A stretch of DNA of 64,000 nt from Escarpia spicata (lineage: Eukaryota > Annelida > Polychaeta > Sabellida > Siboglinidae), in contig OZ023206.1 of NCBI GenBank assembly GCA_963995525.1, positions 71,398,490 through 71,462,489 on the forward strand. Reading direction: 5' to 3'. Both the position numbers and the translations under genes were made by a program. The notes beneath the pieces were generated by a model. It saw only the letters and a list, made by a program, of their open reading frames with translations, was not told the DNA's origin and ran no database searches. Positions 5,068 through 62,880 of this stretch are shown here, piece by piece (the first letter of the stretch is position 1; every line of letters starts with the position of its first letter).

Positions 5068-8000
5068 CTGAAGCTTCAAGATAAATACATAACTGTTGAA
5101 GTTGGTAACATTATTTATAACAACTAATCATATATGTAATAAAAATACATTGTTGTACTGTTACATAGTTGTACTGTTACATAGTTGTACTGTTACATAG
5201 TTGTACTGTTACATAGTTGTACTGTTACATAGTTGTACTGTTACATTGTACTGTTACATAGTTGTACTGTTACATAGTTGTACTGTTACATAGTTGTACT
5301 GTTACATAGTTGTACTGTTACATAGTTGTACTGTTACACGTTTTCATAGTACATTTCTTTTGTTCATTTAGCAAAGAGTAGGTAATTTTTGAATCAAAAC
5401 AGTCAAATTTGACATAATGAAATCAGTTTGGTAACCTAAATTTTAAATTTATAAGAAGTTAGCCCGAGACTTACAGGTGATTAGTAAAACTTCAAAATCA
5501 CAGTCTTCACAGAAGAACATGCCCAAATCTTGATGTACTATCTTTCGAAATAGGGAATTTCAAGTCTGATGCTGAAACAACCTTGCTGGTCAACATTTAT
5601 TAATATTTATCTGAATAATGTTTTTAATACTAGAATAAATATGCTGGACGTTTACAGCCCATTAAATTTTGTTTAATAACTACAAACCATACTTTTGAAT
5701 TTTAATTTTGCACCCATGTAATAGGCAACTTGTATATAAAACATACAAATAGTATTTCCTTTAACTGCTGTGTGAAGTTAGGCACATGTGCCTGGTTCTG
5801 TGTGGTCCCCACAATGCAGACAGCAACTGGGACAAAGTACAGATGAGTTGCAAAATTTCTTACTAATACTATTACTGCCACCCCTGGTTTGTGAGGATGA
5901 TTTTGGGTAAAGGAATGGACAAGATCTGTTGGATTCTTAAGTAGGGACTTGTAAGTAGGACTTGTAAGTAGGACTTGTAACTTACTCACTATGTCTGCCT
6001 CTTCTTCGGGTTGATTGGCATATTTTCATCAAAGTCCTCATCTGAATCACAAAGCAACAGCGTCAGTAAAATACGATTGAACCCTGAATAACAGGCTTTG
6101 ATCAGATCAGACATCACCTCCAATGGAAATGAATAACAGGATGCTTTGATCAGATCAGACATCACCTCCAATGGAAATGAATAACAGGATGCTTTGATCA
6201 GATCAGACATCACCTCCAATGGAAATGAATAACAGGATGCTTTGATCAGATCAGACATCACCTCCAATGGAAATGAATAACAGGATGCTTTGATCAGATC
6301 AGACATCACCTCCAATGGAAATGTTGCAGTAGTTTGAGGCATCAATTTTTGTTTGTTTTTCAATAAATGTTCCAAGCACTGACATTTTGGATCTAAGGTA
6401 TGGATCTTGTGTCCTTCTGTACACCAAGGAGTCTGGGGTTGTCTACAAATGATATACGCAAGGACGGGTGGTAGTGTACATATATAATGATAATGTGTGG
6501 TGTTTAATAAAGTTGGTATCCATTAGGCAAGGCGACCATGGCGCTTCCTCCGTTACCAGAGCAAGTGTTTGGACAGCAGCTGATACAGCGTCCAAATGAG
6601 CTGTTGTAGATCGAGCCTATTGATAGTGCGGGTTCAAAACAGTTTTTTTCAATTTTTGTGTGGGATCTTCTACTATTTGTCCAGCCAGCGCTCGACCACC
6701 ATTCTCCATTGTACTACTTGCAAAGATAAACATCATGTATCGCGGGGAGTCAGACCCAGTGCGTACACTGTGTATCGCGGGGAGTCAGACCCGGTGCGTA
6801 CACTGTGTATCGCGGGGAGTCAGACCCGGTGCGTACACTGTGTATCGCGGGGAGTCAGACCCAGTGCGTACACTGTGTATCCCGGGGAGTCAGACCCGAT
6901 GCGTACACTGTGTATCCCGGGGAGTCAGACACGGTGCGTACACTGTGTATCCCGGGGAGTCAGACCCGGTGCGTACACTGTGTATCCCGGGGAGTCAGAC
7001 ACGGTGCGTACACTGTGTATCCCGGGGAGTCAGACCCGGTGCGTACACTGTGTATCCCGGGGAGTCAGACCCGGTGCATACACTGTTTATCCCGGGGAGT
7101 CAGACCCGGTGCGTACACTGTGTATCCCGGGGAGTCAGACCCGGTGCGTACACTGTGTATCCTGGGGAGTCAGACCCGGTGCGTACACTGTGTATCCCGG
7201 GGAGTCAGACACGGTGCGTACACTGTGTATCCCGGGGAGTCAGACCCGGTGCATACACTGTGTATCCCGGGGAGTCAGACCCGGTGCGTACACTGTGTAT
7301 CCCGGGGAGTCAGACCCGGTGCGTACACTGTGTATCCCGGGGAGTCAGACACGGTGCGTACACTGTGTATCCCGGGGAGTCAGACACGGTGCGTACACTG
7401 TGTATCCCGGGGAGTCAGACCCGGTGCGTACACTGTGTATCCCGGGGAGTCAGACACGGTGCGTACACTGTGTATCCCGGGGAGTCAGACCCGGTGCGTA
7501 CACTGTTTATCCCGGGGAGTCAGACCCGGTGCGTACACTGTGTATCCCGGGGAGTCAGACCCGGTGCGTACACTGTGTATCCCGGGGAGTCAGACCCGGT
7601 GCGTACACTGTGTATCCCGGGGAGTCAGACCCGGTGCGTACACTGTGTATCCCGGGGAGTCAGACCCGGTGCGTACACTGTGTATCCCGGGGAGTCAGAC
7701 CCGGTGCGTACACTGTGTATCCTGGGGAGTCAGACCCGGTGCGTACACTGTGTATCCAGGGGAGTCAGACCCGGTGCGTACACTGTGTATCCTGGGGAGT
7801 CAGACCCGGTGCGTACACTGTGTATCCCGGGGAGTCAGACCCGGTGCGTACACTGTGTATCCTGGGGAGTCAGACCCGGTGCGTACACTGTGTATCCCGG
7901 GGAGTCAGACCCGGTGCGTACACTGTGTATCCCGGGGAGTCAGACCCGGTGCGTACACTGTGTATCCCGGGGAGTCAGACCCGGTGCGTACACTGTGTAT

Positions 8001-11000
8001 CCCGGGGAGTCAGACCCGGTGCGTACACTGTGTATCCCTGGGAGTCAGACCCGGTGCGTACACTGTGTATCCTGGGGAGTCAGACCCGGTGCGTACACTG
8101 TGTATCCTGGGGAGTCAGACCCGGTGCGTACACTGTGTATCCCGGGGAGTCAGACCCGGTGCGTACACTGTGTATCCCGGGGAGTCAGACCCGGTGCGTA
8201 CACTGTGTATCCCGGGGAGTCAGACCCGGTGCGTACACTGTGTATCCCGGGGAGTCAGACCCGGTGCGTACACTGTGTATCCCGGGGAGTCAGACCCGGT
8301 GCGTACACTGTGTATCCCGGGGAGTCAGACCCGGTGCGTACACTGTGTATCCCGGGGAGTCAGACCCGGTGCGTACACTGTGTATCCTGGGGAGTCAGAC
8401 CCGGTGCGTACACTGTGTACCTGTTCCTCGTCACTCGTTTCTCAGTTTCTGTGCTCTCGAGACATCTCAACACATGTGCTTCAATAACTGCCTGACTGAA
8501 CGGCTTCGAACAGATGGGGCATGGCTGACTGGAAGAAAACAAACAACTTCAAACAGGGAAGGGAAGGAGGGAGGGAGGGGGTTTGGAAAGGAGAGAGGGA
8601 GGTAGGAAGTGAGAAAGAGAGGGCATAAAAGAGGGAGGGAGGGAGGGGGTTTGGAAGGGAGAGAGGGAGGTAGGAAGTGAGAAAGAGAGGGACATAGGGA
8701 GGGAGATAAGATTCAAGTAGGGTTTGATACCTTGTCTAGACTTAGATACAGAATATCGATCTCAAACAGCTTAAAGTTAAATGTTTTGTAAACAGAGAAT
8801 GAGGGCGAGGTGGAGACATACAGACCTACACAGCACAACCAGCAGCTTCAACGTGTCGACAAGAACAAGACACAACTCACCCCTCCTCCTGCCCATGTGG
8901 TCCCACATTCCCCTTTCCCCTCCTCCCAACGGGAGGGGTGGGAAGCTCTGAGTCAGAGAAGATCTCCACATCATCTGGCTTCGGTGAGTGTCTGGAGGGA
9001 AGAAGGAAAACAGATAGGGAAGAAGGGACAAATAAAGACGATTCGGAGAGTGTCAGTAGTGTAAACAAAACTATGAAAGTCAACAATATGGCCATCTGTA
9101 GAACTAGAAACAAATGGTTGTCACACAGGTGTCTTGATCATTTGTCAGTACAGATCAGTATACACACGTACAATTATATATACCGGGTAGTCACCTGCTT
9201 GGTTTTTGCTGCATCCAGGTTTTTGCTGCTTTCTGATATTGCGCATTCTGAATCTCACATTAGACACGTCTTTAGTCAGATATATCAGTTACTGGGAGCA
9301 AAGGACGCCTACAAACTTTCAACAAAAGTTATTTGTCTAAAATTAAAACAAAGCAAACAGGTTTTTGATACATTATTTGGATAGCGAACACTATCCAAAT
9401 AATGGCGGTGATGTAAACATCTGTATTTTTCCAATTTATTGGACGAAATTGTAAGCTGTTCACAGTAATAACCACGGGAAAGTTATAGAACAGCCCATGG
9501 CGTTTATACAGCTAACATGTCACGCCTTGCGATGATTTTGAACACAATGCAGTAAAAACTGGGTGCATCTGTTTGATGCTTGAAGTGATATCATCTTACA
9601 GATATTGTAAGTATTTCACTAAAACCAACTTATCTGATGCTTTGTTTGTATGCCATTTATGAAATAAGTGGTTCTAATTAATAATATCGATATATTACAG
9701 AATGGTTTCTAAAATTGTTGGTGAAAACTGTATATTATGGTTGCGTACAGCACAAACCAAGTGAGTGGTCCAGTATATTTATATATATCTACATAAAACA
9801 ATCTTGGTGAACTAGACATGGTCATAATTCTAAGGTGTCCTTGTTATTGAGGGGGTGGTGGTTAGTTGGGGAGCCGCTACATTGTTAGAGTTGACCAAGT
9901 ATGGAACAATACTATACCAAGGTCTCTATTAAAATCAAAAAGGCACATATAATTTATTATGCCCCTATATTTCATGTACATAACAACATAAGATTCTAAA
10001 TGCAGTAATACAGTATGAGGTTGCAAAGTAAAGGAGAATTTTCAAGTTTGTCAATTTGGTAAGAGGAACCATAGACTAGAAAAATTTTCCAAATTCAAAG
10101 GAACCAAATACAACAGAGAACTTAAAAAGGTAAGTTCTTATATAGCGCATTATATCAGATACACTTTACTCCCTGGCAGACCTATTCAATCGAATACCAA
10201 CTTCTCTGGGAAGCATTCAGTCATGCTGCAATTAATGCACAAAGACTATTCGAACACAAATATCCACCACTGTCTATAGCCAGGTACTCATTCATACAGC
10301 TAAGTGAAATGGAGCAATGCAGAGTGAACGAACTTGCCCAAGGTTTGACGCCACAGCACAGGATTGAAACCCAGGTTCTCTCGATTGAGAGTGTGATGCA
10401 CTAGCCAACCTACTTTAGGTTTAATCCTGTAAAACCAGAAATCTAGACAATCCACCTTCACTGTCAGCTGTTTATGGCAGCAACTGCAACTTCTATATAT
10501 GTCAACACTTAAGCCATTTTACTCACTTGGTACCGCTGACTGTGGTTTGCCCTGCAGCCTGCCTCCACCTGCCAACTGCCGTCTTCACTGGGCTATTGTC
10601 TAAAATAGCAAGGGAGATTTTCAAATGTGCTGAAAATATGCATCACATGTCCAATTATATGTCCACAAAACTAAGCAATGCTGGAATAACTACTTGTTTC
10701 CACCTACTTGCTATAAAATATAAGGGCAAGCAGATGCGTAGCAGTGCTACCGAAAGTCAACATTTTGAAAAAGAAAACAAAATGGTGCGTATAATTATTA
10801 GTACACTTGATAGCACTGTGTCCACCCTAGCAACATTGATCTTTGCAACTTCATTTAGTAAAACACATTGTTATGATGTATTGCCTTTACCAATAGCTAC
10901 AAATAGGACCTATACCCCATATCGTTGCGAGTTTTTAAAATGTATTGGTCAAACTGGGGACAAGATCCCGGCCAAGAGCAACGTTTTGGGAAAAAATGGT

Positions 11001-14000: not shown

Positions 14001-17000
14001 CATTTTTAATGGCATGTTTGCAACTTAAACATTTCACTAACACAACATTCAAACTGCAGACAATGTTTCAGACTGATTAAATGCAATTGTGCGGGCAGCA
14101 AACCTTCGACATATCTACTTCAGTACTGAGAATATTATACTACAAACTGTGGAACAGACAAAGTCGGCTGAACAAATTATTAACGGTTTCAGTGCCACCG
14201 AGCCGATTCCGCCGATCACCGGTTTTGTCGTGCAGCTGATTGCGCCGATTTTTTGTTTTACAACATGTATACTGGCAATGGCTGTGACACCATTTTAAAA
14301 TGACCGATAAGAATAATCATTTCAAGAGGGAGGTGTTCGGCCGCTGGTTTCACAATTACATTTAGATTTGTACTAGTTTAACAGTGAAAATAAACTGGAT
14401 GTCATAACCAAAAAATCTAATTTTATATGACAATGCTTACGATACAAAATGCATCGGATGATGTATTAGTGAGAGCAAGTTGTTGTGTCATCTGACTGTT
14501 ATGTTTTGGGGACTAAATACAAAATGATCGGCCCTTTCAGGAAATGTATAGTTTACTTGTTGATATTTGAACACTAACGGCATAAAACAGAAGTTTAGAA
14601 TGGCGTACAATTCTCAAAAAAGACTTGGTACTTCTTGTATACCTGCGCAATTAAGGCTGGCAATAAAACGGCCAAGAATCACAACTGGTGAGAATTGAAA
14701 TACCAATGAAAATGCAGTACTATTGTCAAGAAACGAACAGACCTTCTTGCTGAGAACTGGACGAACCAATGTCTCCCTGACAGTTGAACGCATGCTCCTC
14801 AATGCCCTCTAGTGGGAAGTACTTGAAGCACATTGGACATTCGGCTTGTTGCTGTGGCAACAGACATCAATTTGTACTAGGTAATGGATATATGCATGCA
14901 TCAACAACAGTAACCCAGTGACCAACTGCACTGGGGTATTCAGAACCGATAGTTGAAACTCAGATTATTTTATTTCCCATCAAAACAGGAACAATTTTGG
15001 AAAGTCACACAGTTTCCTATAAATAGGCAATTATATGCACAGCTGCTTAAAGATATAAATCTACCTATTGTCTGAAGGTTTGAATCTACAATATTTTTTG
15101 ATGTTCGAATTTCTTAAAGTTTTAGAATGTTTTAATCAGCAGCTGTCTGATGATGTTTGAATGTTTCAAGCATGTTACATATTCATAGGTTTCAATCTAA
15201 CAAATGTTTGAAGATTTCGATCTCCCAATGCTGAAACTGGAATTTCTTTATTTGACAGGAGAAAAGAAATTCTTGCGCATAAAAAGACTGCTTGGAGACT
15301 CTGACAAAGGGGTAAAGAATATGACGCTAGTGTGAGAGCCACCTTTAGGGCTGGGTCGACTCAATCCCCAAGTGTTGAGACATTCAATTATTCCCACCCT
15401 CTGGGTTTGGTAGAAATTCTACACAATCGTAGGAATGTATTGTAAGCAATGACAAGATGACAGGAACTTGTCAAAGAGACCAGTTGTCAGGTATGGCAAA
15501 AAACTTCTTTTCAAGCTTTGTCTCAAAAGAAATTTTAAACTGTCAATTAAACTTTTACACAATAGTCTGTATTTAAATATAAAACATATTTCTCAGAATG
15601 TACAGATATTCCGGACCAAATTTTTTTTTTTTAATCAAATTGTTTGTGATGTAAATAATGTATAATAAAATATACCTTTTTTTGTTCCACTTCTATAGCA
15701 GCTCTGTTTTGTTCCTCTCTCATTTGTTGTTGCTGCTGTTGTTGTTGCTGTTGTTGCTGCTGCTGCTCTTGTAGTTGTTGTTGTTGTCGCTGCTGTTGTT
15801 TTTGTGGTTGCCACAGGTCCTCATCCTCACTACTACTGATCTCCAACAACGATCCCTGCGTGCCAACTGATCCCTCTCCAGTCACTGCCGTGACCTTCCG
15901 ATGCAGGAAACTGGCTGCCCCAGACACCACTGTTTGGGCAATGCTGGCAACGGCTGAAATCACACGTCCTCTTTGGTTCGCCCTGGTCTCCTTGACAACT
16001 GGGCTGGTCTCCTTGACAACCGGGCTGGTCTCCTTGACAACCGGGATAGTCTCCTTGACAACCGCTTGGGATTCAACTCGATTCCTCGCATCCTCAGTTC
16101 CATCACCCATCTGTCTTTCTGGTGGCTTCCGTTGAACTTTAGCTATCGGTTTGAAATAGCCGTCAAAGCTGCTCATATTACTACTGGTAGCTGGGTGTTC
16201 TTCCAAACCTACATCGTCCTTTCCCGTGTCCTGTTGACTGTTCGTATCAGCCTGTTCACATTTTAATTTAGTTTTCACATCACTGTCATCTCCACTGCTA
16301 TTCTCATCGTCCGTAAACAAATCCTGTGGGATTTTTGTCACACCCTTTAATATCGATTGCCTCCCAGTACCACGCCCAGTTTTGCATTTTGCTGTTCCAC
16401 GCTGCCAAGTTAAACCGAGCCGCCTGGTGGCTTTGGCAGGAACTGCATCCCCAACTGTAGCCCGACCTTGCATCAAGATGATGTTTAAGGTGTCTTCATG
16501 GTCTAACTGCTTCCTGGAAATGTTCACCTTTCTATCCATTTTTCCGGTAGACTGCGCCTTCTGCGCTGCAGGCGATTTCAACCACTCACCAGGTGGCGTA
16601 TCGGGAATACTTTCAAGGTTCTCATTCTTGTTCTGCTGTACTTTTTTCTCCGTTATTGCAGCTTTACTTGCAGGTTTTCCCGTGCGAGCCGGCACTCGCT
16701 TTTTTATACGTTCTTTCAAGTTGGGCAGCCAATCAACATCCTTATCACTACTGTTGTTATCGCTGTCCAAAAACGTCCGGGGAGAATTTTCATCCAATCT
16801 AGCATTAGAAAATTCTTCATCGCTATTCAGCCCTTCGATTTTCGCATTTTGACCTCTGAGACGTTTTGTTATGCCCACTCTGTCGGCAGATGTTTCCTCT
16901 TCTGCCTGTCGAAGTTCGATGGTATTGGTCATGTGACAGCCTACACAGACTGGGGGGCCCCAGGGAACCATGACAACAGAGTGATCCTGCAGGCATCTTA

Positions 17001-20000
17001 GATTCGTCTGATCCTCCCTGAAGAACTCAATGATTCGCTGCGTACACTGACTAGTGGATACACCTGGTGGAGTGAAGTAGCGACGACTCTCGATGAGCTG
17101 AATGGTAAAATGAATCAACAGGATTAACGTAAATCCACCTGCAAATCTATCTCAACTATACTAATAAGTATATTTGTATGATGCAGTCTATCTCACGGTA
17201 GTTATTAAAAAGCATGTACTACACTTAATTAATCAATGATAATAAATTAGTAAAAATATGGCACATATCGTTAAATATAAAATTCATTACCTTAATAAAT
17301 GTTTAGCAATATACAAATATACATGCCTCGTTTGCTGTTGTGCTTGCCCTCAAACAGCATAAGGCCTTCCAGCAGGCATCCATGTTTTATCAACTATTAT
17401 AGCAATCTACAGTTTAGTCATGCTTCCAAAATATCAGCTAGATAATAAAATCCACTGAATGTCAGCGAGATTGTTTGAGAGGTGTGGAAACAAGACTGTG
17501 ACATTTTAATGAATATGTACTCTTGTAAATATCTAACTTACACACCTTTTTCTTCCGTGTCCTGCAACAGAGAAACTGTAGTTATTATGGGGTATTGTTT
17601 AAATGAACTCCAAAAGCATTAGGTAAGTTAAAAAAATTTAATAATAGAAATGTTGCAAGCCCATTTAGCTATTGCCACATTGTGACAAACTGGTCTGTGA
17701 CAGATATTTAGTGAGAATAATTTAAAACTGCAACATCAGAAAAAACATTTTAATTAGTTTAAATATTACTCTTGTTACCGGGGATACCATCAATCACAGG
17801 GATTCGTTGCATTTCTTTCATGTTAAAATTTGTTGTCAAAATGATAACACATTTTTAATACAAAAAATTATCATTATTTGTTTGTTTAACCATTTCAGTA
17901 CAACAGGCCGAATTTCCGGCCACACCATCTGTGGCGCTTCAGTACAACAGGCCGGTTATTTGGCATTAACGATGTCTGCTATTCAAATCGTTTTTATTCA
18001 TAATTATCCACTAGATGGAGCCACTTGTTGTACGGTTGTCAAGGCTATTCAGCAGTGGTGATCGCTTATTATCGCTCAATAATAGTTTACTGGGATTTTC
18101 GCTGTTTTTAATGATGGATTATCAAAATCTGCGGTGGTCACAATGGCGGATGGTATTACTTCAACTAGCGATTTATTACTGTATGTTTTGGACAGATTTG
18201 ATAGATTTAGCGGAAGAATCTTTGTCAGATGTTGATGATCGACACAATAACGATGTCGGAGATTTTAGTATACAACTGTGTTCAGCAACTATAAAAATGT
18301 TAAAATCTTGGCGGAATGTAAAACGACATGGCTCATTTTATTCACTGATTATCGTACTTTCTGAAAATATATAACATTCCTATTCATAAAACGCATTTTT
18401 GTTGCTAAAATCTGGACTTGAAGTGAGGTAGTCCATTGTCTTGCATATTCACTGGGAATGCAGTATTCAGTGGTCACAGCTGGTCAGGGATGTAGTACTG
18501 AAATGGTTAACTTAGTAAAACAATTGTATTTTAGTACTTCTCATTCTTAAGAGGCAGGATGGCACATTTAATAAACATGCCTCTGATGGTTTTTCAAAGA
18601 AAATGCACATCTCCTTAGAACAAGACCTACCATTTATTGACTAGCTTCATTGATGGTGACTCTGGTGCAATGTTCCCAAGAAGCTTGTCATTCTGTATCG
18701 CAATAAGAACATTAACGGGTTAATTAATAATAATAAACACACAAAATAATGTGTCTATGGCCATCTGTAAACAAATAAAAATTACTTTAACAGTTTATGA
18801 AATAGAATAATAAGTCACATGTATACCGTATTCATTCTATTAAGCGTACATGCCCTAATTAGCATGCACCCCCCCATTAGCAATGTCTGACACCGTAACA
18901 GAGAGCTCCCAAGCCCACCTTCACTGTTGAATCCATCAGTGTAATTTAATTTCTACCAATGTCACACTAGATTCAAAGCTCAGTGATGAAAAGATATCGA
19001 AAGGTCCACACAAATAATGAGACTTTACAGTGTTCTTGTGTCATTTTCCTCATATGAATGAATACGTTATATCAAAATTAAGATGACAGACTTAGAGAGA
19101 TCTGAGAAGGGCAGGTACGAATGGGAGAGTGAGAGAACATGGCAGAAGAGGGAGAGAGATGGAGCCTGGAGAGAAACTGTACTGAGGGTAAAACGTAACA
19201 GGTGACGTGGACCCCCCACCACAAAGGGAAGAAGGATGTATTATCATTACTCTTGGTCAGCAGACCGTCTATTAAATCGTGTTACTGCTAATTTTCATAT
19301 TCCGCCATGTTGTTTTGCATAATTTTAATCACCAAATTTCACGAATTGGGTTGAATCTTACTAACGGGTTTGGCAAAATATAATTACAATTATTTCATTG
19401 ACAACTCGTCACTAATGTGCTTGAATGTTCATGAAAATCGGTTTCAAGAACATCCAGTGAAATTCAAGGATACTCGAATGAAAAAATCAAATTCAAGAAC
19501 ATTCAAGACTTTCGGGGATCTGTGCGAACCCTGATTAAAAGAAAATCTCAAGAAACACAATTTGACCACATTGACAGAGTATTCAACCACATGGAACAAT
19601 TATGACATGTATCTGCTTGCAGATGATCCCAGCCCTGAAAAATATTCTATTTTGTCTACCTACATGTAATAACTGGCCCCAAAACAATTATTCCATTGTA
19701 TCTACCTACAGGTAGAAAGTTCATGAAGAGAAACAATGATACCATATTATCTACCTGCTAGTAATCCCTGATCCACAAACAATTATTCCATCTTATCTAC
19801 CTACTAATAATCCCTGGTCCAGAAACAGTTATTCCATCTTATCTACCTGCTAATAATCCCTGGTCCAGAAACAATTATTCCATCTTATCTACCTGCTAGT
19901 AATCCCTGGTCCAGAAACAATTATTCCATCTTATCTACCTGCTAGTAATCCCTGGTCCGCAAACAATGATACCATCTTATCTACATGCTGGTAATCTCTG

Positions 20001-23000
20001 ATCCACAAACAATTATTCCATCTTATCTATCTGCTAGTAATCCCTGGTCCACATACAATGATTCCATTTTATCTACCTGCTAATAATCCCTGGTCCAGAA
20101 ACAATTATCCCATCTTATCTACCTGTTAGTAATCCCTGGTCCACAAACAATGATACCATCTTATCTACATGTTAGTAATCCCTGGTCCACAAACAGTGAT
20201 TGCATCTTATCTACCTGCTAGTAATTCCTGGTCCACAAACAATTATTCCATCTTATCTACCTACTAGTAATCCCTGGTCCACAAACAATGATACCATCTT
20301 ATCTACATGCTAGTAATCCCTAGTCCACAAACAATTGTTCCATCTTATCTACCTGCTAGTAATCCCTGGTCCACAAACAATTATTCCATCTTTTCTACCT
20401 GCTAGTAATCCCTGGTCCACAAACAATTATTCCATCTTATTTACCTGCTAGTAATCTCTGGTCCGGAAACAATTATCCCATCTTATCTACCTACTAATAA
20501 TCCCTGGTCCAGAAACAATTATCCCATCTACCTGCTAATAATCCCTGGTCCAGAGACAATTATCCAATCTTATCTACCTGCTAATAATCCCTGGTCCACA
20601 AACAATTATCCCATCTTATCTACCTGCTAATCATTCCTGGTCCAGAAACAATTATCCCATCTTATCTACCTGCTAATCATTCCTGGTCCAGAAACAATTA
20701 TCCCATCTTATCTACCTGCTAATCATTCCTGGTCCACAAACAATTATCCCATCTTATCTACCTGCTAATCATTCCTGGTCCACAAACAATTATCCCATCT
20801 TATCTACCTGCTAATCATTCCTGGTCCACAAACAATTATTCCATCTTATCTACCTACTAATAATCTCTGGTACACAAACAATTATCCCATCTTATCTACC
20901 TGCTAATAATCCCTGGTCCACAAACAATTATCCCATCTTATCTACCTGCTAATCATTCCTGGTCCAGAAACAATTATCTCATCTTATCTACCTGCTAATC
21001 ATTCCTGGTCCACAAACAATTATCCCATCTTATCTACCTACTAATAATCTCTGGTACACAAACAATTATCCCATCTTATCTACCTGCTAATCATTCCTGG
21101 TCCAGAAACAATTATCCCATCTTATCTACCTGCTAATAATCTCTGGTCCACAAACAATTATCCCATCTTATCTACATGCTAATCATTCCTGGTCCAGAAA
21201 CAATTATCCCATCTTATCTACCTGCTAATCATTCCTGGTCCACAAACAATTATCCCATCTTATCTACCTACTAATAATCTCTGGTACACAAACAATTATC
21301 CCATCTTATCTACCTGCTAATCATTCCTGGTCCACAAACAATTATCCCATCTTATCTACCTGCTAATCATTCCTGGTCCAGAAACAATTATCCCATCTTA
21401 TCTACCTGCTAATCATTCCTGGTCCACAAACAATTATCCCATCTTATCTACCTGCTAATCATTCCTGGTCCACAAACAATTATCCCATCTTATCTACCTG
21501 CTAATAATCTCTGGTCCACAAACAATTATCCCATCTTATCTACCTGCTAATCATTCCTGGTCCAGAAACAATTATCCCATCTTATCTACCTGCTAATCAT
21601 TCCTGGTCCACAAACAATTATCCCATCTTATCTACCTACTAATAATCTCTGGTACACAAACAATTATCCCATCTTATCTACCTGCTAATCATTCCTGGTC
21701 CAGAAACAATTATCCCATCTTATCTACCTGCTAATCATTCCTGGTCCAGAAACAATTATCCCATCTTATCTACCTGCTAATCATTCCTGGTCCAGAAACA
21801 ATTATCCCATCTTATCTACCTGCTAATCATTCCTGGTCCAGAAACAATTATCCCATCTTATCTACCTGCTAATCATTCCTGGTCCACAAACAATTATCCC
21901 ATCTTATCTACCTGCTAATCATTCCTGGTCCACAAACAATTATCCCATCTTATCTACCTGCTAATCATTCCTGGTCCACAAACAATTATTCCATCTTATC
22001 TACCTACTAGTAATCCCTGGTCCACAAACAATGATACCATCTTATCTACATGCTAGTAATCCCTAGTCCACAAACAATTGTTCCATCTTATCTACCTGCT
22101 AGTAATCCCTGGTCCACAAACAATTATTCCATCTTTTCTACCTGCTAGTAATCCCTGGTCCACAAACAATTATTCCATCTTATCTACCTGCTAGTAATCT
22201 CTGGTCCGGAAACAATTATCCCATCTTATCTACCTACTAATAATCCCTGGTCCAGAAACAATTATCCCATCTACCTGCTAATAATCCCTGGTCCAGAGAC
22301 AATTATCCAATCTTATCTACCTGCTAATAATCCCTGGTCCACAAACAATTATCCCATCTTATCTACCTGCTAATCATTCCTGGTCCAGAAACAATTATCC
22401 CATCTTATCTACCTGCTAATCATTCCTGGTCCAGAAACAATTATCCCATCTTATCTACCTGCTAATCATTCCTGGTCCACAAACAATTATCCCATCTTAT
22501 CTACCTGCTAATCATTCCTGGTCCACAAACAATTATCCCATCTTATCTACCTGCTAATCATTCCTGGTCCACAAACAATTATTCCATCTTATCTACCTAC
22601 TAATAATCTCTGGTACACAAACAATTATCCCATCTTATCTACCTGCTAATAATCCCTGGTCCACAAACAATTATCCCATCTTATCTACCTGCTAATCATT
22701 CCTGGTCCAGAAACAATTATCTCATCTTATCTACCTGCTAATCATTCCTGGTCCACAAACAATTATCCCATCTTATCTACCTACTAATAATCTCTGGTAC
22801 ACAAACAATTATCCCATCTTATCTACCTGCTAATCATTCCTGGTCCAGAAACAATTATCCCATCTTATCTACCTGCTAATAATCTCTGGTCCACAAACAA
22901 TTATCCCATCTTATCTACATGCTAATCATTCCTGGTCCAGAAACAATTATCCCATCTTATCTACCTGCTAATCATTCCTGGTCCACAAACAATTATCCCA

Positions 23001-26000
23001 TCTTATCTACCTACTAATAATCTCTGGTACACAAACAATTATCCCATCTTATCTACCTGCTAATCATTCCTGGTCCACAAACAATTATCCCATCTTATCT
23101 ACCTGCTAATCATTCCTGGTCCAGAAACAATTATCCCATCTTATCTACCTGCTAATCATTCCTGGTCCACAAACAATTATCCCATCTTATCTACCTGCTA
23201 ATCATTCCTGGTCCACAAACAATTATCCCATCTTATCTACCTGCTAATAATCTCTGGTCCACAAACAATTATCCCATCTTATCTACCTGCTAATCATTCC
23301 TGGTCCAGAAACAATTATCCCATCTTATCTACCTGCTAATCATTCCTGGTCCACAAACAATTATCCCATCTTATCTACCTACTAATAATCTCTGGTACAC
23401 AAACAATTATCCCATCTTATCTACCTGCTAATCATTCCTGGTCCAGAAACAATTATCCCATCTTATCTACCTGCTAATCATTCCTGGTCCAGAAACAATT
23501 ATCCCATCTTATCTACCTGCTAATCATTCCTGGTCCACAAACAATTATCCCATCTTATCTACCTGCTAATCATTCCTGGTCCAGAAACAATTATCCCATC
23601 TTATCTACCTGCTAATCATTCCTGGTCCACAAACAATTATCCCATCTTATCTACCTGCTAATCATTCCTGGTCCACAAACAATTATCCCATCTTATCTAC
23701 CTGCTAATCATTCCTGGTCCACAAACAATTATTCCATCTTATCTACCTACTAATAATCTCTGGTACACAAACAATTATCCCATCTTATCTACCTGCTAAT
23801 AATCCCTGGTCCACAAACAATTATCCCATCTTATCTACCTGCTAATCATTCCTGGTCCAGAAACAATTATCTCATCTTATCTACCTGCTAATAATCTCTG
23901 GTCCACAAACAATTATCTCATCTTATCTACCTGCTAATAATCTCTGGTCCACAAACAATTATCCCATCTTATCTACCTACTAATAATCTCTGGTACACAA
24001 ACAATTATCCCATCTTATCTACCTGCTAATCATTCCTGGTCCAGAAACAATTATCCCATCTTATCTACCTGCTAATAATCTCTGGTCCACAAACAATTAT
24101 CCCATCTTATCTACATGCTAATCATTCCTGGTCCAGAAACAATTATCCCATCTTATCTACCTGCTAATCATTCCTGGTCCACAAACAATTATCCCATCTT
24201 ATCTACCTACTAATAATCTCTGGTACACAAACAATTATCCCATCTTATCTACCTGCTAATCATTCCTGGTCCACAAACAATTATCCCATCTTATCTACCT
24301 GCTAATCATTCCTGGTCCAGAAACAATTATCCCATCTTATCTACCTGCTAATCATTCCTGGTCCACAAACAATTATCCCATCTTATCTACCTGCTAATCA
24401 TTCCTGGTCCAGAAACAATTATCCCATCTTATCTACCTGCTAATCATTCCTGGTCCACAAACAATTATCCCATCTTATCTACCTGCTAATCATTCCTGGT
24501 CCACAAACAACTATCCCATCTTATCTACCTGCTAATAATCCCTGGTCCACAAACAACTATCCCATCTTATCTACCTTCAGGTAATCCCAGGCCTAGAAAT
24601 AATTATTATATTGTATCTATTGCAGGCAATCCACGTAGAAAGTAAATGGCCAGAAACAATGAGTCCATCTTTTCTACCTGCAGGTAATCCCATGCCCAGA
24701 AGATAGGTCTCTTGGCAGACGGTCCACCTTCCTCTGGGACCAATTTCCTTTTCCGTGGACCAATGACATCATCTTTTGGACCACTGCAAACAATGCCCAT
24801 TTTCACATCATTGCAAAACACAAATACGTGTCACATCAAGACAACGATTATTGTGTTGTTAGACATGGTGAAGTTTTGTTATGTTTATTTACCAAAATTA
24901 AGGTGTTTTTTGTGGGCTAGGATCAGTCTTTATCTTAAGAAAATATCTAAAATTTCTGACATGTTCACACGGTTCATGTTTCCGTTCATGTTTCCCATGT
25001 AACATATAACTATAGGTGGATTTATAGCGTTTTAGACATTTGAAACTCGTACACTTCACTGGCTGTTTACAAGTATTCTATTGCAAACACAACTGTCCTG
25101 TAGACATCTGCAGTGCATCCAGTAGTATTTCTTTCACATATATCTTAGAAATACCTCAGGTGTTCTTGGGATGTTTCATTATCTTGACTGTTCCCATGGC
25201 AACATGACTGTGAACCATTCGCCGTGGTCTGACCGGTGGCGCCACCACCAGGAGAGTTATTGTCACTGAACATATCTTGTGTCTCATCAGAATCAACGTC
25301 TTGTGATTGTTTCCCCTAAAATCACAACCAAATCAGAACATATTGATATTTCTATCAATTACAAGCAAGTTTGAAGCACCTAATGTAGCTAAATTAATTA
25401 TTAAAATATGTAAAGACAATGAAGGTGTTTACCAAATTATTGAAACAATTATTATGCATTGATTTGAAACCACTTTTATACATTCTTTCTCTGAAATTAT
25501 TATACCTTTTCATCATCCTCACTGACATAGATGCACAAACTTTGTACTAGTAAGAAAACCTGTTTGTTTACGTCACAAATTTGTGAAAGCCCTAAGGGGG
25601 TTTTAGTTAGAATACCCTTTAAAAAACAATTGGGGTGCTAACTAGTTGTATCTGTTAGTGCTGCCACCGATACTTAAATGTCACAGAACAAGCTTAAAAA
25701 CAGGTTTTGTGAGAACAAAATTGAAGCCACAATAAAATATACTTGTCTAAATTACTTAGCGTAACATGCGTCATACCATAATTATCCAGAAATCAATAAA
25801 AAAATACAATGTTATCATTTAATTATGTAACACTGTACTAACACCCCTATTTGATGAACGAAGCTGGATTTATGAAACTGTAAAAAATCATAGCAAAAAA
25901 GCTCGCCATGCAAATATAGTAGGCTGTGTCATTGCACTCTTTATGACTTGGCTGAAAATGTTCACATGAGCGAGGAAAGTTTAAATTGTTGATGCATCTA

Positions 26001-29000
26001 ATTACCTATCAAGTAAAGCAGCATTCTATGAAACCAACTGACCGAACCAAAACATAGAGTAACTCAACCTTAAGACAATTGTGAAACCTTTTAAACATTT
26101 TACGTAAAGAAACAACAGATGTGACACTGACTTGTGAAAATGTTCATCAAGATGGTGGATATTAAATAACAAAGTTTTCTTAATACACAACTAGAAATGT
26201 TTCAACTCACATCGACATGTCTGATGAGCAGAGGAAGAACAGTTTCTGATGGCCGGCAATTCAGAACATTTTGTTATTTAGATGTGACAATGATATATAT
26301 GCTGACATAGTAATCTGAACTGTTACAACAAACAAACTACTGCAATGGCCGTATTGGGACACTTTAAAATAATTAAATTATCAGCTGTCCCAAAATATAC
26401 GGTGCACAAAAGATACTTAGGGACACGAACAAGTCCTGACGTCATGTCATCCTTGTCTGCTACTAACTATTTTTGGGTGTCTCAGTGGCCCTACATCCTA
26501 ATAATAAAGTCTTATATAGCGCTGTATCCAGTCCTTAGTTCTGTTTAAGCGCTTTACAAAAAAGTTCACAATTATATGTCACTCATTTAGGTAGTGAAAG
26601 TGATTTTAAAAAGGTGTGTCTTCAGTGCCGTCTTAAACGAGGCAATAGTGTCACACTGTCTGACTGACTGTGGCAGATTGTTCCAAAGTACAGGGGCCAC
26701 TTTGGAGAATGCACGGTCTCCGAAAGACTTGAGGCGTGTGGTTGGTACTGTCAGCAGACCAGCAGAATTTGATCGGAGGGAGTCCGTGGAGTGCCTTGAA
26801 GGTGATCAGGAGAATTTTAAACGTAATTCTTTCTAGGATGGGAAGCCAATGGAGAGATTTCAGGACTGGTGTTACGTGCTCGTGTTTCCTTGTTCGTGTG
26901 ATTAAACGAGCAGTCGTGTTCTGAATGCACTGCAGTCTACGTAGCTGACACTTGTCAGTTCCGAACAGCAGCGAATTACAACCATCTAGACTGGACCTTA
27001 TAAATGAATGGATGATTTGTTCGGCAGCTCCTGGCGCAAGAAATTGGATGATTTTACCCATATTTCGGATTTGCAGACCAGAAGATCTACAGATGGCACT
27101 GACTTGTTGATCCACTGTAAGTCCAGCATCGAACATGACCCCAAGATTTCTGACACATGTACTGGGGGGGGTCACTTGGGTGTCTCCAACGTCAATCTTT
27201 GTTGTTTTAGGTATCTTTCTGCGCAGTGCCTCTGATCTCGTGAACAATACACAGGAACAAAAATAATTATATTTACACAGGTGTCCCAAAACAGACGGCA
27301 CAACAAAATTATTATTTTTCTAGATTTTTAGGTTGTCTGTGAACTAACCTGTTGTGAGCTGAGTTGGAATGTCTCACTGGAGTGTGTGGCAAGTAGGGCC
27401 TTAACAGCTGCTCCTCCAACCTACGATAGGAAATAACATCAGCAACTTACAATTGTAGCACAGGGTGTGTATCAATAATTTATCTTTATCTTAGTACTTT
27501 AAAATGACAAAATAGACACATTTTCTCTATGCCAGCTTTCTCTTCTTTATCTATTTCTCAGCCACCCATCTTGCAGCTAATTTCTAGGTTTAGTTTTTTA
27601 TTATAATTTTCTATCTTCAAAGAAAACATCATCTTGGACCTCAGAGGAAGTTGAAGCTGTCCCAGTTATGTGGCCATGGTATCTAACAGAAGAATGGGAA
27701 CACAAAAGAACAGGAACTATGTGTTTAATACTGTTTATCAGATTAAACAACAACACTGATTACAATCCAAATCCCGACAATGTTTGGTTTCTAACCAAAT
27801 TGCGATGCTAGTAGAACCACCTATCATTATGCCGGCCCCACCGCCTGGTGAGTAGGAGACGAACTAAACATCCCAACATTCGGTTCGCAAGGTCCCAAGT
27901 TACGTTAAGCATTACATAAAACAGTTTGCTCATCTCCATATATTGTGGGGGAAATAAATTGCTGCACCGGTTGAAACATGTTACAGCAAATTGATGCAAA
28001 TAACACCATGTATTGATAGGAGAGGGTAGAACACATGCTTATGCAAACTTTGGATATTGTCCCTTACAAAGATGTCATTGGTTTGCCTTTCTTTGTGGAC
28101 ACAACAAAATGTTTGCACGGTATGTTCAACAAAGACTGACAGAAAACAAAACTTTGTATCCAGTGACCAGTCATGTGACCCTAGGCAGTGCTTGGTGGCT
28201 TGGTGATGTGGTCAGCCCAGTGACACTTTCCGACATATAAATTTCAAAATGTCCACAATTTTCCTCCAGGCAAGCTTAGATTAAACAGTTCTCAGATATG
28301 ACTAGGTTCAAAAGGGATATACATATAAAATTTGTTGAATTTTCTCTGACAAAACTGACAACCAATACATGTTTTCACAGTGACCTTCAATATGCCCTTT
28401 CTCAAATAAAAAACTATTAGAATAATATCTCACCTCTCGTTGAAGTTTGTCTGACTTTGGGGTCTCTATCTTTTCAAATATCACCGAGCTGTCATCAGAA
28501 CCTTGGGCATCTTCGTCAATGGTGGTGCCATCTTGCATCAGGTGAAGGTCAGCGTCTCGCGTCTCGGTGGTCACTGTAGGAACTACACCCTCTTGCTGTG
28601 GTTTTCTCATGACGGTTTCAAGCAAAACAACACAATCATGTGTTTCCGTACCAGACTGATTATTTTGGTTTTTGTCCAATTTAACACCGGCTTCATCACT
28701 GGTCTTTAAAACCTTTGCCGGTTTAGAAGACACTGCTAGCACACTAGTTCTCTTTCTTGCGGAATTACCGACACTATCACAATCGGTGGTTTCACTTGTG
28801 GTCTGATTCTGACCTCTTCTTCGCAAGCGTAATTTGTTGGGTGTTTGTGTACCACTAGCGACATCTGGCAGCTTTTTAGTGCAGTCACCAGAATCATCTG
28901 GCTGAGAATGCATAGGACTGTTCGGCTCGACACATGGGTTTTCATCGGTGCTGGTCTTTGTGTCAAATCGTCTCGTAATGGCGACGTTTTCCTCCAGGGA

Positions 29001-33237: not shown

Positions 33238-33512
33238 ATGTCACCAAAGGCAAGGAAACATGCCTTGCAAGTTGCCGTAAAGACAAGGAAACATGCCTTG
33301 CAAGTTGCCGTAAAGACAAGGAAACATGCCTTGCAAGTTGCCGAAAAGACAAGGAAACATGTCTTGCAAGTTGCCGTAAAGACAAGGAAACATGTCTTGC
33401 AAGTTGCCGTAAAGACTAGGAAACATGCCTTGCAAGTTGCCCTAAAAACAAGGAAACATGCCTTGCAAGTTGCCCTAAAAACAAGGAAACATGCCTTGCA
33501 AGTTGCCGTTGG
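33238..33512. repeat. 33-bp minisatellite at the exon 1 acceptor
   Basis: About eight copies of a 33-bp unit (core CCTTGCAAGTTGCCGTAAAG). The unit next to the gene merges into a diverged double copy of a CCTTTGGTGACA(C/T)AG word. One copy of that word is the exon 1 acceptor itself, only 25 bases from the array. Confidence 0.9.
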
Positions 33513-61737: not shown

Positions 61738-61794
61738 GTACTGTGGGACTTGGGTCGTACGTTGGCTCAGGTATTGGACGACCAAGGAAATTGT

Positions 61795-62340
61795 CATGAT
61801 ACCAAACACGAGAAATGATCCATGTTAAACTGAATGTCATGATACTAAATATAAGAATTGATCCATGTGAAACTGAATGTCATGATACTAAACATAAGAA
61901 TTGATCCATGTTAAACTGAATGTCATGATACTAAATATAAGAATTGATCCATGTGAAACTGAATGTCATGATACTAAACATAAGAATTGATCCATGTTAA
62001 ACTGAATGTCATGATACTAAATATAAGAATTGATCCATGTTAAATTGAATGTCATGATGCTAATCATAAGAATTGATCCATGTTAAACTGAATGTCATGA
62101 TACTAAATATAAGAATTGATCCATGTGAAACTGAATGTCATGATACTAAACATAAGAATTGATCCATGTTAAACTGAATGTCATGATACTAATTATAAGA
62201 ATTGATCCATGTTAAACTGAATGTCATGATACTAAATATAAGAATTGATCCATGTGAAACTGAATGTCATGATACTAAACATAAGAATTGATCCATGTTA
62301 AACTGAATGTCATGATACTAAACATAAGAATTGATCTGTA
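61795..62340. repeat. 43-bp minisatellite (dimeric)
   Basis: About 12 copies of a 43-bp unit (core AAGAATTGATCCATGTTAAA). Units alternate CCATGTGAAAC/AAACATAAG and CCATGTTAAAC/AAATATAAG, giving an 86-bp higher-order period. Confidence 0.95.
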
Positions 62341-62369: not shown

Positions 62370-62880
62370 CATGATAATTGGTCCAGATAAAACTGAATCT
62401 TTATACAAAACATGATACACTGTAATTGGTCCAGGTAAAACTGAATCTGTATACAAAACATGATACACTGTCATTGCTTCAGGTAAAACTGAATCTTTAC
62501 ACAAAACATGATACACTGTAATTGGTCCAGGTAAAACTGAATCTTTATACAAAACATGATACACTGTCATTGCTCCAGGTAAAACTGAATCTTTATACAA
62601 AACATGATACAGTGTAATTGGTCCAGGTAAAACTGAATCTTTATACAAAACATGATACACTGTTATTGCTCCAGGTAAAACTGAATCTTTATACAAAACA
62701 TGATACACTGTAATTGCTCCAGGTAAAACTGAATCTTTATACAAAACATGATACACTGTAATTGCTCCAGGTAAAACTGAATCTTTATACAAAACATGAT
62801 ACACTGTAATTGCTCCAGGTAAAACTGAATCTTTATACAAAACATGATACAGTGTAATTGCTCCAGGTAAAACTGAGTGT
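62370..62880. repeat. 48-bp minisatellite related to the preceding array
   Basis: About ten copies of a 48-bp unit (core AAAACTGAATCTTTATACAA). It shares AATTG(A/G)TCCA(T/G)G and AAACTGAAT with the 43-bp array next to it. Degenerate AATTGGTCCATGT words continue to about 63090. Confidence 0.95.

Follow-up and report, generated by a model that had tools for sequence, protein, structure and literature searches.

A stretch of 64,000 nucleotides from Escarpia spicata (contig OZ023206.1, assembly GCA_963995525.1, forward-strand positions 71,398,490 to 71,462,489) was analysed; it is called the window below, and positions are counted from its first letter. A predicted gene on the minus strand carries in its intron 7 a long array of 46-bp tandem units that resemble the 3' end of exon 7 together with the 5' splice site (donor). 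The array is probably a mirage minisatellite, seeded by the exon 7 end and donor or having them as its surviving edge, which would be largely neutral and whose donor-like decoys would be ignored in splicing. Mirage minisatellites are tandem repeats across exon-intron boundaries that were described in amphioxus Adh3 and globin genes (PMC3087553). The exon model used here, including the end of exon 7 at 24678, was obtained by reading-frame inference and not from cDNA.

Tandem Repeats Finder (TRF) reported 105.6 copies of a 46-bp unit at 19731-24576. With the wraparound alignment of this unit, the repeat extended from 24701 to 19595 and comprised 111 units, including the boundary unit. The alignment began 24 nt within predicted exon 7 (24678..24783, minus strand, 106 nt), passed the donor, and continued through the intron, so the last 24 nt of the exon (24701-24678) are part of the repeat. 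The initial annotation had placed the array adjacent to exon 7. The relation goes beyond adjoining, because the alignment starts inside the exon. The nearest unit with the donor motif AG/GTAGA (the slash marks the splice position) has its GT at 24574. It is separated from the true donor by 103 bp, which include one degenerate unit. The boundary unit (24652..24697, minus strand) contains the exon 7 end, the true donor CAG/GTAGAAAA (GT at 24677-24676), and the intron start. It matched the consensus of the right-edge units (98-108) at 37/46 positions and the core consensus at 33/46. The best control outside the array reached 25/46 among 117,538 positions on both strands, or 27/46 if any cyclic rotation was allowed. 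The intronic part of the boundary copy matched at 22/26 positions (best elsewhere, 18/26). The exonic part matched at 15/20 and also ranked first, by a narrow margin when taken alone (best elsewhere, 14/20).

A profile hidden Markov model (HMM) was built solely from units 3 and 98-111, with the exon copy excluded. This exon-free profile recovered the boundary at 24701-24648 with E = 1.4e-12, compared with E = 1.2 for the best match outside the array, and no dispersed copies of the unit were found by profile search in the rest of the window. The 154 nt of exon 7 and the intron start gave a wraparound score of 33, while 100 dinucleotide shuffles gave a mean of 8.4 and a maximum of 12. The claim of the initial annotation that the array repeats the sequence of the exon 7/intron 7 boundary was thus borne out. 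Furthermore, when 14 arrays in the window were surveyed, this was the sole case in which a unit copy coincided with an exon boundary of the predicted gene (24654-24701, E = 1.8e-8). The survey is a limited control, with a cut-off of E <= 0.1, four arrays entered as a single piece, and the boundaries of the predicted gene alone. The true exon 7 donor also lies inside a perfect 12-bp palindrome, TACCTGCAGGTA (24675-24686), which is unique on the minus strand of the window and missing from the core unit.

About 5 kb of intron 7 (5,985 bp in total) consists of the 110 tandem units that follow the boundary unit. Unit 2 (24595..24651, minus strand) is degenerate, with a 12-nt insertion and no AG/GTAGA donor, and scored E = 0.2 with the exon-free profile. 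The main array, units 3-108 (19729..24594, minus strand; TRF and wraparound alignment), has the consensus GGACCAGGAATGATTAGCAG/GTAGATAAGATGGGATAATTGTTTGT. At the far edge, units 109-111 (19595..19728, minus strand; wraparound alignment and unit ranking) are degenerate, and unit 111 is again like the exon end (TGGGATCATCTGCA). The centre is homogenised and the edges are left out: units 4-108 agreed with the core consensus at 36-46 of 46 positions, whereas units 2 and 109-111 agreed at 30-32. In addition, the interior holds two tandem 1,743-bp blocks of 38 units (20235..23720, minus strand; 23720-21978 and 21977-20235), identical at 1741/1743 positions, which looks like a recent expansion. Similarity to the 24 exonic nt was highest for unit 3 (score 18), near the exon-side end of the array. 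Units 111, at the far end, and 105 shared the second place (14), and the median of the 110 units was 8.

The motif AG/GTAGA was retained in 99 of the 110 units, including CAG/GTAGATAA in 76 and TAG/GTAGATAA in 16. The initial annotation had described a ladder of about 105 units, each with an AG/GTAGAT donor. The ladder itself stands, and the numbers need correction to 110 units after the exon (degenerate edge units included) and 99 with AG/GTAGA. The U1 duplex energy of the true donor was -8.0 kcal/mol, and the commonest unit donor had the same value. Such pairing was found for 81 of 323 GTs in the array (-8.0 kcal/mol or lower), versus 33 of 3,900 elsewhere on the minus strand and four of the 11 inferred donors of the gene. 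Accordingly, 81 array donors were equal to or slightly better than the true one in U1 pairing, in agreement with the earlier description of decoys in the style of the true site.

The pyrimidine content at -20 to -5 before the 99 array AG/GTAGA sites had a median of 31% (range 31-69%), compared with 44-75% for the ten inferred acceptors of the gene and a median of 50% for background AGs. Because this median is below both the background and the acceptors of the gene, the array AGs are poor acceptors as a rule. Read-through from exon 7 met an in-frame stop at 24608, ahead of every array AG/GTAGA. When the array was entered in the phase of exon 7 at AG/GTAGA, a stop followed at codon 6 in 91 of 99 cases and at codons 11-33 in the other eight. 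Entry at the CCAG/ sites (n = 100) led to a stop at codon 2 in 56, codon 7 in 40, and codons 17-21 in 4. Given these early stops, the use of array sites in mRNA would nearly always be nonproductive. The removal of units inside the intron would be silent in mRNA.

According to the mirage reading, the 3' end of exon 7 with its donor would be the seed, or the surviving edge, of the 46-bp tandem repeat. The repeat may have grown inside intron 7 via unequal exchange or slippage, with the 38-unit block duplication as its latest step, and the outermost copy would have been kept functional by being the end of an exon. Copies near both ends would have escaped homogenisation and stayed exon-like, and the core would have been homogenised to a derived type. 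Since exon-like units survive near both ends, the exon-like state is probably ancestral and the centre replaced, so copying from the exon into the array is favoured, but not proven. We infer exon definition, normal splicing, and near-neutrality as well. The first donor after the real exon, with an acceptor 106 nt upstream, would be recognised as the end of the exon either while the decoys are still untranscribed or by preference over them. The decoys, which lack an acceptor with a pyrimidine tract, would probably be passed over, as an exon and an acceptor stand ahead of the true donor alone.

Several observations weigh against this reading. Against the exonic nucleotides, the edge units 2, 109, and 110 scored 8, 7, and 8, which does not set them above the median. 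A similar picture would result if the end of the exon had been extended from repeats in the intron, so the copying may also have run the other way. The near-perfect 1.7-kb duplication could be partly an assembly error. Moreover, the commonest decoy outscored the true donor (2.54 vs 0.95) on a donor weight matrix. In the predicted RNA fold of 24783-23900, 13 of 14 array donors were more open (0.08-0.24) than the true donor (0.00), and unit 3 had 0.007. As the weight matrix and the folding both favour the decoys, donor strength does not single out the true site and does not account for its choice. Finally, exons 8 and 9 are short (62 and 16 nt) and less secure in a model that depends on reading frames.

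A further reading concerns the acceptor of exon 7. It is possible, although rather unlikely, that one AG-containing tandem element gave the 3' splice site of exon 7 as its first copy, the 5' splice site as its second, and the intronic array as its later copies. With slightly more reserve, it may be suggested that the same repeat position serves as acceptor in the first copy, as donor in the second, and as silent decoy in the later array of about 110 units. Exon 7 would then be one interval of a tandem series of 106, 103, 46, 46 ... bp. The acceptor (24784..24800, minus strand, ending TTTGCAG) and the 23 nt of exon 7 that follow it together show an in-register likeness to the donor element, which is suggestive and is not confirmed by profile searches. 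Aligned with the exon 7 donor, it had an anchored score of 29. Of the other AGs on the minus strand (3,272), 1, 1, 4, and 1 did as well under four scorings. On the plus strand, the highest score among 3,245 AGs was 23, and the next of the 110 donor and acceptor pairs of the gene scored 15. The free local alignment of 24830-24705 with the boundary units was equalled by 3/1000 shuffles. However, the idea arose after inspection, and the exon-side part alone (24783-24705) was matched by 22/1000 shuffles. A match to the boundary units equal to that of the acceptor stretch was seen for 10 of 927 genomic segments, and against the right-edge consensus the acceptor scored only 19, a value reached by 10 of 1,500 sampled AGs. 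In one of three profile searches the acceptor stretch appeared at E = 3.6, and the other two did not list it. The middle of exon 7 was not significantly similar to the next interval (62/1000 shuffles), so exon 7 as a whole built of units was rejected, its ends matching and its middle not. The exon 8 acceptor was at background (anchored score 5 vs a mean of 4.9 over 1,500 sampled AGs) and was likewise rejected as a unit copy, as was the exon 6 donor, whose score was equalled by 477 of 3,890 GTs.

The array might also be a regulatory decoy. Its roughly 80 to 100 U1 sites would then act as competitors of the true donor or shield the long intron from premature polyadenylation, and the length of the array would tune expression via nonproductive splicing. 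This is improbable. It would agree with the 81 strong U1 sites and with the inclusion of the in-frame stop at 24608 whenever any array AG/GTAGA donor is used. The core unit with C at column 45 was also predicted to form a hairpin with 7/9 donor bases unpaired (-11.1 kcal/mol, 3/500 shuffles as low), and the unit with G at this column reached -8.2 kcal/mol (14/500 shuffles as low). A 38-bp intronic variable number tandem repeat (VNTR) in TERT changes splicing (PMC11830802). By contrast, the published mirages are reported to leave splicing unaltered (PMC3087553), and the donor columns of the array showed no clear special conservation. Among 33 distinct unit types, variability was low in the six columns 21-26, from GT on (1/46 six-column stretches lower), but the whole donor nonamer (columns 18-26) was not specially conserved, 9/46 nine-column stretches varying less. 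As the nonamer was unremarkable, no claim of selection on the array donors was drawn.

The initial annotation had also raised recursive or nested splicing within the array, which would make it a ladder of ratchet sites by which intron 7 loses length ahead of the joining of exons 7 and 8. Splicing to the CAG/GTAGAT of a good unit would leave a new donor with the U1 complementarity of the first one, and such removal would be silent in mRNA. As at ratchet sites, an AG stands directly before the donor GT, in the AG/GTAGA of 99/110 units. However, the definition of a ratchet site includes a pyrimidine tract before the AG, and with a median of 31% at the 99 sites, lower than the background and the acceptors of the gene (0.50 and 0.44-0.75), the array AGs do not have such tracts. 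No positive evidence for this kind of splicing was obtained, and we consider it very doubtful. Finally, many other minisatellites occur in the window, among which an ordinary intronic one might resemble an exon end by chance, but the probability of this is negligible given the match of a profile made without the boundary (E = 1.4e-12) and the 37/46 identity against 25/46 in the best control.

RNA hairpins were also predicted for the core units, and most of the donor-like site falls in their loop (24400-24491, minus strand; z = -2.68 for a two-unit stretch). The mean RNA hairpin energy was -8.1 kcal/mol for core units and -5.3 kcal/mol for right-edge units. Most shuffles gave a weaker RNA hairpin than the core did. 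The strengthening brought by the three changes that define the core was matched or exceeded by 205/3000 random triples (about 7%), which is weak evidence. Expansion driven by hairpins was rejected, as the DNA hairpins of the core units were weak, with means of -1.3 kcal/mol on one strand and 0.0 kcal/mol on the other.

The host gene model has 11 exons on the minus strand between 33204, the predicted start codon in exon 1, and 14743. Their joined length of 2,821 nt makes 940 complete codons, and the concatenation is free of stops with consistent splice phases. Judged by these spliced frames, the window appears to be eukaryotic. Exon 8 (18631..18692, minus strand, 62 nt) was predicted from its frame, and its acceptor closes intron 7. 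A search of a protein collection with exon 10 found three relatives, P0001-P0003, with identities of 61, 61, and 57% over query coverages of 95, 88, and 83%; in the alignment the identity was 59-68%. These relatives speak for a real gene. A Pfam scan of the exon pieces gave no family over the curated cut-off, the N-terminal 152 residues gave zero matches, and neither the exon 7+8 peptide search nor the exon 10 profile search gave a relevant match. With the exon 7 reading frame as the query, no candidate for an orthologous exon 7 was found. For a zinc-finger-like part of exon 11, the top PDB match was human RAP80, at E = 0.12 only. The whole predicted protein had 14 matches, none under E = 0.13 and none of them RAP80, and the identity RAP80/UIMC1 was therefore set aside as a guess.

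Many minisatellites were observed in the window. Those at 61792-62336 (43 bp) and 62375-62876 (48 bp) detected each other by profile (E of about 0.0003 to 0.03), and of these two only the consensus of 62375-62876 has a plus-strand CAG/GTAAAA (U1, -8.3 kcal/mol). A 21-bp minisatellite in coding exon 10 (15983-16064) encodes repeats of approximately PVVKETS and is followed by a glutamine-rich stretch at about 15724-15810. On the upstream side of the exon 1 start codon predicted at 33204, a 33-bp array (33246-33509) comes to within about 40 bp of it. The 35-bp array at 6736-8419 has 48 copies. All three plus-strand frames are open across it (673, 622, and 585 aa), because the period is indivisible by three and the unit seldom or never makes a stop. 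In intron 5, reading frames at 26587-27319 without a Pfam match resemble part of a long interspersed nuclear element (LINE) reverse transcriptase.

The array offers a natural experiment in 5' splice-site choice, with a single true donor and, on the intron side only, about 100 copies that look like donors. Whether these decoys are used, bound, or ignored would be a direct test of exon definition and first-come models. Like VNTR6-1 in TERT intron 6, the array is an intronic minisatellite; the TERT unit is 38 bp long and affects splicing, which its authors attribute to G-quadruplexes, and a copied splice site is not among the features described in the passages considered (PMC11830802). Like the model of Rogers, in which introns are gained by tandem duplication of exonic AGGT, the array has tandem AG/GT copies at a coding boundary. 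In that model, however, the copies supply the 5' and 3' splice sites of the new intron (PMC4974935), whereas intron 7 does not have a unit copy as its 3' site. An AGGT tandem-duplication intron, which needs both splice sites from one segment, was not supported, as the intron 7 acceptor scored 5 against a background of 4.9. The internal tandem repeats of human duplicated genes also place a minisatellite at an exon-intron boundary and alter gene structure (PMC2812944). They have units of 30 bp on average in four copies and new introns backed by transcripts, while the present case was drawn from sequence alone.

The closest likeness is to the amphioxus mirages, in which the unit spans an exon-intron boundary, many units contain AG/GT, the centre is homogenised, and the edges are excluded, as was found here; reverse transcription polymerase chain reaction (RT-PCR) suggests that they are spliced regularly (PMC3087553). 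The BflGb9 mirage duplicates the 3' boundary of an exon, as the present array does. Length polymorphism or somatic instability also belongs to the mirage kind, and the near-identical block duplication would be an indirect sign of it here. Our array lies in a gene other than Adh3, BflGb6, and BflGb9, and it differs in size, with 110 units of 46 bp over 5.1 kb compared with two haplotypes of BflGb6 that have 6 and 3 units, each of 150-160 bp (PMC3087553). It appears, from this one sequence, to be a further and unusually long member of the mirage kind. The result suggests that a mirage can reach 5 kb beside an open coding frame, and it is a specific example of how exon-intron structure may arise from minisatellites.

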